The notes beneath the pieces were generated by a model. It searched no databases. It saw only the letters and a list, made by a program, of their open reading frames with translations, and was not told the origin of the DNA. The position numbers and the translations under genes were made by a program. From Bacillota bacterium (lineage in GTDB: Bacteria > Bacillota > UBA4882 > UBA10575): a DNA stretch of 64,000 nucleotides. Position 1 is the stretch's first letter; each line of letters starts with the position of its first letter. Positions 48,526-50,635 of this stretch are shown piece after piece. Where the stretch lies: contig JAAYGU010000147.1 of NCBI GenBank assembly GCA_012727535.1, positions 1 through 64,000 on the forward strand, given 5' to 3'.

Positions 48526-48555
48526 TTGACAGTTCTTTAGGGGCGATTATATAAT
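48526..48555 (+). promoter_or_regulatory. Strong promoter of the leader peptide/ABC exporter operon
   Basis: TTGACA (48526-48531) and TATAAT (48550-48555), both perfect consensus, with an 18-nt spacer. The start site is near 48562. Confidence 0.88.
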
Positions 48556-48581
48556 TTTAACAGCATTTTCGCCAAGGGAAA

Positions 48582-48751
48582 GGAGGTGGGGATGATGAAA
48601 CACTTCTTGATTACAGAAAAACTTAATATATATATGCTCCTTAAGAAAGTGCTATCCCCACCTCCCAACCGAGTCATCTGATTTATTGACTACTTGTCTG
48701 TCAAACTACTAGCTCAATTTGAGTCGTGGAGATATCCGCCACGGCTTTTTT
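48582..48751 (+). promoter_or_regulatory. Translation-coupled attenuator of the ABC exporter operon
   Basis: GGAGGTGGGGAT (48582-48593, the leader ribosome site and start) is perfectly complementary to ATCCCCACCTCC (48654-48665), which encodes the Ser-Pro-Pro-Pro codons. Downstream GTCGTGG / CCACGGC (48723-48729, 48739-48745) followed by six T residues forms an intrinsic terminator before the exporter genes. A further CATGG/CCGTGG pairing lies beyond it. A ribosome stalled or slowed in the leader would alter this folding; the exact switch is inferred. Confidence 0.7.
48592..48681 (+). CDS. 29-residue leader peptide with a Pro-Pro-Pro motif
   Basis: Behind a very strong ribosome site (AAAGGAGGT) an ATGATG start opens a 29-codon frame. 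It contains KHFLITEKLNIYMLLKKV and ends LSPPPNRVI before TGA 48679-48681. Three consecutive prolines near the end are a classical ribosome-slowing sequence. It precedes a terminator-like hairpin and a pair of drug-exporter genes, the same layout as Bacillus bmrB-bmrC-bmrD. Its likely role is regulatory, in cis, not as a stable protein. Confidence 0.75.
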   Translation: MMKHFLITEKLNIYMLLKKVLSPPPNRVI

Positions 48752-48892
48752 AGTATAAGTAAAGGTCATGGGGAAAGCCGTGGCCTTTGTCTGTTCTTAG
48801 CTAAGAACGAGGGAAAATTGCTTGCTCAGATCATTCATCAGCTATGGCACAGCGCTATAAACATAAGGGTAAGCACTAGAGGATGTGAAACC

Positions 48893-50635
48893 GTGAAACG
48901 GATCCTTTCCTATGTTGAGAAAGAAAAACGCTATTTTATTCCGGCCATTGGCGCCTTATTGCTCGGAATTGCTTTGGATATGTTTAATCCATACTTATTA
49001 AAATTAATCATTGACCGGGTGATTATTGGGGGAGAATCCGCGCTGCTCCCCAAGGCACTCTCTGGATTTCTGGCCGTTGCTTTCGGACGGGTAGTATTTG
49101 GCTACATTAAAGAATATGCCTTTGATTATGGCGGGCAAAAAGTTGCCGTGGGCTTGCAAGCAGACCTCTTCTCCCACCTGCAGGCGCTCTCTTTTGATTT
49201 TTTTGACCGGACCAATACGGGAGAATTAATGTCGCGTCTGAAAGATGATGTTGATCATATCAGAGCGGCCCTCACCTATGTCATTATGCTTTCGGTGGAA
49301 AACATCATTTATTTTGTGAGCGCCACCGTGATCCTGTTTACCCTCAATTGGAAACTATCACTGGTCGCCCTGGTCTTGATGCCGCTCATCGCCCAGATTG
49401 CTCTTCGGCTGGAAAAAAAGATCGGTGAAATCTATGAGCACATCAGTGACCAGGACGCTAAGATTAACACGACTGCTCAGGAAAACATTACCGGGGTAAG
49501 GGTGGTAAAAGCTTTTGGGCGCGAAGAATACGAATGCCGCAAGTTTCTACAGCAAAACCAGGAAAACTACGGTTATAAGTTAAAACGCGCGCGGATATGG
49601 GGTAGGTATTTTCCCCAGATCGAATTTCTAACCAACCTCTCCATTGTACTCGTGACGGTCGTCGGTGGAGCGTTGGTCATCGGCGATGAGCTCTCGGTCG
49701 GAACATTGGTCGCCTTCAGCGACTATGTGACGATGTTAATCTGGCCAATGCGGATGAGTGGCTGGTTAATGAATGATCTGGCTGAAGGACTAGCGTCGGT
49801 AAAAAAAATCAACCAATTATTTGCCGCCGTTCCATCCGTTAAAGAGCCGGCAGTGCCAACCATTCTTCCAAGTTTCAGGGGACATTTGCTCTTTGACCAT
49901 GTTTCCTTTATCCGGGATGGACGGGTGATCCTGGAGGATATTAATTTTGAAGCTCCACCAGGAGCAACGATTGCCATCATGGGCGCTACTGGTGCCGGAA
50001 AAACTTCCTTAGTTAATCTGATCGGCCGTTATTATGATTGTACTTCCGGGGCGATCCACCTTGATGGTGTAGAAATCAGACAACTCCCGCTGCAGCTACT
50101 CCGGCGTCAAGTCGCAATGGTCATGCAGGACACCTTTCTTTTTTCGGCGACGATTGAAGAGAATATCCGGTTCGGAGGGGGCGAAAGTATCTCCCCAACG
50201 GAAATAGAAGAAGCCTTAAGACAAGCCGCGCTGGCCGATTTTGTCGCTGAGCTTCCACAGGGGTTGGCCACCGTCATCGGAGAGCGAGGAATTGGCCTGT
50301 CCGGAGGGCAAAAACAGCGCCTGGCACTGGCCCGTGCCCTGGTGAAAAAAAGCCCCATCTTGATCCTCGACGATGCCACTTCCAATCTGGATATGGAGAC
50401 AGAGTACCAAATCCAACAGGCCTTGGAGGCGCTAAGCGGGAGAACCAAAATAATTATTGCCCACCGGATCTCCGCAGTGAAAAATGCCGATGAGATTCTC
50501 ATCCTGGAGCAGGGAAGAATTGTGGAACGCGGTACCCACCAACAACTATTAGCCTTAGGAAAACGGTACTACGCTACTTACCACGACCAGTTTCACGGAA
50601 TTAAGACGCCGGAGGTGAAACCTTTTGCCCATTAA
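48893..50635 (+). CDS. ABC exporter half-transporter (BmrC/LmrC-like)
   Basis: This is a multidrug-type exporter subunit with six membrane helices (residues about 15-300) and a nucleotide-binding domain. Walker A MGATGAGKTSLVNLIG, signature GLSGGQKQRLALARAL and Walker B ILILDDATSNLD are visible. The catalytic Glu after Walker B is Asp, marking the degenerate site expected in one half of heterodimeric exporters such as BmrCD and TM287/288. I place the start at GTG 48893 behind AGAGGATGTG; the open frame runs higher through the attenuator and is not coding there. Its stop overlaps the next gene by 11 nt. Confidence 0.9.
   Translation: MKRILSYVEKEKRYFIPAIGALLLGIALDMFNPYLLKLIIDRVIIGGESALLPKALSGFLAVAFGRVVFGYIKEYAFDYGGQKVAVGLQADLFSHLQALSFDFFDRTNTGELMSRLKDDVDHIRAALTYVIMLSVENIIYFVSATVILFTLNWKLSLVALVLMPLIAQIALRLEKKIGEIYEHISDQDAKINTTAQENITGVRVVKAFGREEYECRKFLQQNQENYGYKLKRARIWGRYFPQIEFLTNLSIVLVTVVGGALVIGDELSVGTLVAFSDYVTMLIWPMRMSGWLMNDLAEGLASVKKINQLFAAVPSVKEPAVPTILPSFRGHLLFDHVSFIRDGRVILEDINFEAPPGATIAIMGATGAGKTSLVNLIGRYYDCTSGAIHLDGVEIRQLPLQLLRRQVAMVMQDTFLFSATIEENIRFGGGESISPTEIEEALRQAALADFVAELPQGLATVIGERGIGLSGGQKQRLALARALVKKSPILILDDATSNLDMETEYQIQQALEALSGRTKIIIAHRISAVKNADEILILEQGRIVERGTHQQLLALGKRYYATYHDQFHGIKTPEVKPFAH

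Follow-up and report, generated by a model that had tools for sequence, protein, structure and literature searches.

The leader in front of a pair of ABC exporter genes in a Bacillota bacterium is probably a ribosome-mediated transcription attenuator, which would sense a stalled ribosome and in which the Shine-Dalgarno (SD) sequence of a short leader ORF would be part of the switch. Its segments form three mutually exclusive helices: (i) an anti-antiterminator (1:2), (ii) an antiterminator (2:3), and (iii) a terminator (3:4). The window, i.e., the whole stretch of DNA analyzed, comprises 64,000 nt, and the features of the locus are listed in Table 1. Elsewhere in the window, on the minus strand, a T-box leader (Rfam RF00230; 390-643, 98 bits) and a TPP riboswitch (Rfam RF00059; 10773-10865, 66 bits) were identified.

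Table 1. Features of the attenuator leader and of the exporter genes (window positions).
Feature	Position	Strand	Remarks
Promoter TTGACA-18-TATAAT	48526..48555	+	12/12 consensus matches
Segment 1, SD GGAGGTGGGGAT of the leader ORF	48582..48593	+	1:2 covariation, 38 leaders
Leader ORF, 29 codons	48592..48681	+	start ATG 48592 or 48595
Segment 2, GCTATCCCCACCTC	48651..48664	+	read as Leu-Ser-Pro-Pro-Pro; partner is segment 1 or 3
Segment 3, T1 5' arm and loop GTGGAGATATC	48726..48736	+	partner is segment 2 or 4
Intrinsic terminator T1, helix 3:4 and U tract	48722..48751	+	folding, covariation
Second terminator-like hairpin T2	about 48761..48788	+	folding; presumed role
Exporter subunit 1, 580 aa, BmrC/TmrAB-like	48893..50635	+	Walker B followed by D, LILDDATS
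Exporter subunit 2, 602 aa	50625..52433	+	canonical Walker B glutamate, LILDEATA

Both exporter subunits are ABC_membrane and ABC_tran domain proteins, and the gene of subunit 2 overlaps that of subunit 1. With aspartate after Walker B in subunit 1 and glutamate in subunit 2, the pair would contain one degenerate ATP site, as in exporters of the heterodimeric type. Among solved structures, subunit 1 matched TmrAB, TM287/288 and B. subtilis YheI (BmrC; E 5.7e-93), and sequence comparison places the pair with the BmrC/BmrD-type heterodimers. The SD of the exporter itself (GAGGAU; window 48880-48907) is able to pair with codons early in the gene (AUCCUU); visual inspection showed this pairing in the same-genus relative L021 as well, but not in L022.

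The first-pass annotation had described a perfect-consensus promoter, a 29-codon ORF with a strong ribosome-binding site, three Pro codons within a 12-bp complementarity to this site, and a terminator ahead of the exporter genes, and all of these elements were found at the locus. The promoter boxes TTGACA (48526-48531) and TATAAT (48550-48555) are separated by an 18-nt spacer, and promoters were seen by eye at the equivalent place in relatives. The leader ORF, read from the ATG at 48592, encodes MMKHFLITEKLNIYMLLKKVLSPPPNRVI and ends with TGA (48679-48681) ahead of T1, so that the terminator lies outside the ORF. The sequence ATCCCCACCTCC (48654-48665), encoding Ser-Pro-Pro-Pro, is complementary to the SD over 12 bp without a mismatch; the duplex was calculated at -27.2 kcal/mol for the window, and in 1000 dinucleotide shuffles of the window ORF the real match was never equalled. 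This pairing of segments 1 and 2 constitutes the anti-antiterminator.

What the first-pass annotation had overlooked is that the segment 2 codons also pair with the 5' arm and loop of T1. Segment 3 thus forms the antiterminator with segment 2 and the terminator with segment 4. In the window, TATCCCCAC stands opposite GTGGAGATA in the antiterminator with one mismatch, and in the Clostridium relatives GATAGCCC stands opposite GGGCTATC with none. T1 has the sequence GTCGTGG-AGATATCCG-CCACGGC-TTTTTT (48723-48751), with a stem formed by 48723-48729 and 48739-48745 and followed by six T (48746-48751); it was missed by an automatic terminator scan because of its 9-nt loop. The leader folded more stably than dinucleotide shuffles, with z-scores of -2.5 (199 nt) and -3.7 (349 nt).

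A hairpin resembling T2 is also found after T1 in many relatives. The 5' arm of T2 can pair with the freed 3' arm of T1 or with segment 2 (-10.0 and -12.8 kcal/mol, values calculated for the window that make such pairing energetically possible). This pairing might switch both terminators jointly, and T2 would also need to be avoided for exporter expression.

To identify relatives of the leader, searches at the DNA, protein and RNA level were combined. Leaders similar at the DNA level were found in the same genus and in two further genera of the family (L002-L004). A search with the exporter protein yielded 65 loci in named genomes and, within the phylum of the window, 23 places in 22 of 399 genomes; at E<=1e-120, 295 genomes of another phylum, searched for comparison with B. 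subtilis bmrB and Listeria rli59-lmo1652, gave no match, but YheI itself (~1e-93) would have been missed at this threshold, so that the result carries no weight. A leader of the same layout was present in 38 of the 62 upstream regions inspected, originating from Clostridium, Hathewaya, Kineothrix, several Lachnospiraceae, Bacillota and, in one case, a contig classified as spirochaetal, while some homologues of the first subunit among these 62 regions lacked the element (e.g., L025, L029, L062 and L105). The comparison of leaders across related genomes, which had been suggested at first pass, located the layout in front of exporter homologues from Clostridium, Lachnospiraceae and other lineages.

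A covariance model designated R1, comprised of segment 2 to the terminator only (without the SD, the ORF or the 2:3 helix), was then used in a whole-genome search of one clostridial order, in which 49 of 227 genomes carried one match each at E<=0.001. Twenty-three new loci were obtained (L140-L162, where L159 is the same locus as the earlier L034), and in 22 of them a BmrC-like gene follows. Every one of the 23 contains an SD, an ORF that is uninterrupted through segment 2 (the other two frames being closed) and stops 13-25 nt past this segment, and an SD:segment-2 match of 5-11 contiguous bp. Two further copies precede other genes: L126 (1501-1597), with the pairing CAAAACC:GGTTTTG and a second copy in genome G256, lies before a GNAT acetyltransferase gene, and L119 (1501-1599) before small-protein genes. 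The model matches L120-L125 were rejected as plain terminators after genes, without an SD or leader ORF. In one Clostridium group (L147, L152, L153, L156 and L160, the last by spacing only), two tandem small ORFs of ~50-60 aa, similar to each other (SLGGI...KPL...YYFLILNKHI), are located between the attenuator and the exporter, about 120-590 nt past the terminator.

The helices were examined for covariation. For 2:3 in 22 leaders, 87.5% of the cells were paired, compared to 18-42% in slid controls; six of the eight pairs changed on both sides, with 22 double changes (6.0+-2.0 in shuffles) and a covariation of 0.390 (0.152+-0.025). An independent set, comprised of the 23 new loci together with L119 and L126 (22 distinct rows), gave 93.8% paired cells, 14 double changes (4.5+-1.7) and a covariation of 0.380 (0.210+-0.025; 0/500 shuffles). 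The 1:2 helix was paired in 94.9% of the cells in 22 leaders and in 85.5% in 38 leaders, the latter with 32 double-change cells compared to 12.4+-2.8. Since some rows had first been picked by eye for SD complementarity, each ORF was additionally tested against its own SD by shuffling: the match inside the ORF was significant (p<0.05) in 27 of 38 cases (combined p 4e-31), and it falls within the 3' portion, 20-47 nt from the end of the ORF. For 3:4, 96% of the cells in 45 leaders were paired, with 36 double changes compared to 8.2+-5.1. The shuffle control ignores kinship; the slid controls do not, and they score far lower. Judged by these comparisons, all three helices are conserved and covary. 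Deviations were found in L022 and L023 of the window clade, where 1:2 is weakened by a mismatch, and in some Lachnospiraceae leaders, where 1:2 is seen and 2:3 is in another register or indistinct. The terminator loops of L039 and L107 copy the SD (GGGTAAA and AGGTAAA), and in Lachnospiraceae-type leaders of this kind segment 2 pairs with the SD or the loop in the same register.

The frame leading from the start codon to segment 2 was free of stop codons in all 38 leaders, compared to 0 and 2 leaders for the other two frames, and in 25 of 25 further leaders. In total, 63/63 leader ORFs are open through segment 2, with 2/126 control frames open. The ORFs are 20-54 codons long, and their stop codon lies 14-37 nt beyond segment 2 in the 38 leaders and 13-37 nt beyond it over all leaders. 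The 63 encoded peptides are mutually unrelated, with no shared run of codons for a regulatory amino acid. In a small sample of six related Clostridium leaders, pS was 0.164 and pN 0.171 (dN/dS ~1). Because the frames are open, the peptides unrelated and pN close to pS, what evolution keeps is most plausibly an uninterrupted track for the ribosome, and not the peptide.

These observations are combined in the following mechanism. On a ribosome-free leader, the SD would pair with the 3' codons of the ORF (1:2), 3:4 would form and the exporter would be off. A free-running ribosome would cross segment 2 and stop 13-37 nt past it, keeping segment 2 from segment 3, and the exporter would again be off. 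A ribosome that is loaded but stalled at any point between the start codon and segment 2 would separate segments 1 and 2; the freed segment 2 would pair with segment 3, T1 would be blocked and the exporter transcribed. The position of the ribosome alone would count, and the peptide would be irrelevant. We infer leader translation in vivo, the folding order and ribosome-targeting drugs as the natural signal, as well as induction of the exporter by drugs.

In a folding model that treated the ribosome as a physical obstacle and ended the transcript after segment 3, the probability of 1:2 in the empty window leader was 1.00, while that of 2:3 was 0.80 with the ribosome stalled at the start and 0.97 with the ribosome stalled in mid-ORF. 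The 2:3 helix dominated in all 21 modelled leaders once a stalled ribosome parted segment 1 from segment 2. With no ribosome, 2:3 beat 1:2 at equilibrium in 12 of the 21; the off state in these leaders would therefore require 1:2 to fold first as the RNA is transcribed, or translation through segment 2.

The same RNA switch could have general slow or starved translation as its natural signal, with the exporter serving as a stress exporter. The unconstrained peptide is consistent with this, as no drug-specific stall site would be required and any slow ribosome would suffice, and so is the presence of the element before the GNAT acetyltransferase and small-protein genes. However, nearly all copies precede a multidrug-type exporter, and the homologous system of Bacillus answers 50S drugs, not aminoglycosides (PMC4191407), which makes this signal unlikely.

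The leader might instead be an arrest-peptide attenuator, the sensor being Pro-Pro-Pro, or some specific nascent peptide, that stalls the ribosome. Ser-Pro-Pro-Pro is indeed shared by the window and its same-genus relative, Ser-Pro-Pro occurs in two more leaders, and many Clostridium leaders have a Pro codon within segment 2. However, Pro-Pro-Pro was found only in the window and this relative, and the leader peptides contain no conserved amino-acid motif at the stall site. The near-identical segments 2 of L022 and L024 (ATATCCCC A/G CCTC) are read in different frames, as I-S-P-P-L in the former and I-P-A-S in the latter, and the peptide evolves neutrally where this could be tested. Moreover, a stall at Pro-Pro-Pro would mask segment 2 and favour termination. 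Given the unrelated peptides and pN close to pS, Pro-Pro-Pro was rejected as an arrest motif, and we regard a peptide sensor as very improbable. It is the complementarity to the SD, required of this RNA segment, that accounts for the Pro codons, and in the window it yields Pro-Pro-Pro as a by-product; translation would thus matter, and the Pro-Pro-Pro peptide would not. Of the first-pass proposal, attenuation of a BmrC/BmrD-like exporter by a leader ORF finds strong comparative support in the open ORFs and the three covarying helices, whereas its emphasis on Pro-Pro-Pro finds none.

Equally improbable is a ligand-binding riboswitch or a protein-bound attenuator with an incidental ORF. Segments 2 and 3 are conserved in sequence, and a terminator with an antiterminator is riboswitch-like, but the consistently open ORFs with closed control frames argue against an incidental reading frame. 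Beyond the three helices there is no conserved aptamer-like domain, and in Rfam 15 no family scored above its gathering threshold for the leader; weak matches (snoRNAs, rydB, BjrC68) were rejected, as all were far below the gathering scores. Least plausible of all is that the ORF encodes a small functional peptide and has a terminator to itself, with the exporter expressed by leaky read-through or exporting the peptide: the very strong SD, the promoter and the adjoining exporter would fit, but the peptide is not conserved, pN is close to pS, and a plain peptide gene leaves unexplained why segment 2 covaries with both the SD and the terminator.

By sequence, the leader carries the elements of the proposed attenuator class: a short upstream ORF (uORF), an intrinsic terminator, an exclusive antiterminator, and an anti-antiterminator overlapping both the antiterminator and the ORF. 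The attenuation logic is already known from vmlR, lmo0919, cplR and bmrB, and the placing of the SD in a hairpin from the three-codon uORFs of vmlR, cplR and lmo0919. The leader of vmlR of B. subtilis, an ABC-F gene, likewise contains an anti-antiterminator, antiterminator and terminator, with the uORF and its SD inside the anti-antiterminator hairpin; stalling on the uORF prevents this hairpin and leads to read-through (PMC9226507). Its uORF (MIN) consists of three codons whose identity matters (PMC9226507), compared to the 20-54 codons of free sequence here, and in the present family the SD finds its partner among the 3' codons of the ORF itself. In cplR of Clostridioides difficile and lmo0919/vgaL of Listeria, a 5' hairpin likewise sequesters the uORF, an anti-SD element is labelled in a figure legend, a terminator lies 5' of the resistance gene, and the uORF start codon is required for induction (PMC10201436, PMC8079631), its loss making cplR uninducible (PMC10201436). 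These systems differ in controlling ABC-F genes, in their three-codon uORF, in a terminator that also hides the SD of the main gene, and in lacking the long ORF that crosses the anti-SD here (PMC10201436, PMC8079631).

The bmrB-bmrC-bmrD operon of B. subtilis shares the homologous heterodimeric exporter, the intrinsic terminator and the antiterminator, a promoter indifferent to drugs and the need for leader ORF translation, and loss of the bmrB start codon makes the gene uninducible (PMC4191407). However, the terminator lies inside the 162-bp bmrB ORF and not past its stop, and the anti-antiterminator predicted in nt 60-162 was described without SD involvement, its role being left open (PMC4191407). 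In both bmrBCD and vmlR, leader ORF loss or stalling acts in the direction predicted by the mechanism proposed here (PMC4191407, PMC9226507). In hflXr/rli80 of Listeria, a short ORF over the anti-antiterminator also gives ribosome-dependent read-through, but it encodes a 14-aa peptide with an RLR arrest motif and precedes a different gene (PMC6310831). The competition of 1:2, 2:3 and 3:4 set by ribosome position is that of trp/ilv type attenuators, with the differences that there is no run of regulatory codons here and that segment 1 is the SD itself.

The leader family was not found described in Rfam 15 or in the open-access literature. Its architecture therefore appears undescribed: an ORF of 20-54 codons, free in sequence, in which the 3' codons serve as both anti-SD and antiterminator, located before BmrC-type exporters across clostridia. 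Kinship of the family with the bmrB and rli59 leaders is possible. We see even chances for a broader reading, namely that this is a peptide-independent sensor, in an undescribed RNA family that is widespread in clostridia and also recruited before non-exporter genes, in which any stall on the track, from any cause, turns the gene on, and the gene stays off when the track is empty or freely read. The leader SD and the last codons would then be two halves of a lock, with the ORF kept open purely as a track.

To our knowledge, the known drug-sensing leaders use arrest peptides or minimal three-codon ORFs, and therefore see only some drugs. A free peptide combined with strictly kept translation would report ribosome stalling itself, regardless of the inhibitor. 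The family occurs in dozens of clostridial species, with three helices fixed by covariation, and lends itself to reporter tests with compensatory mutations. It would also point to a function for the anti-antiterminator of bmrB-type leaders, so far unexplained, and would offer a way to annotate inducible exporters.
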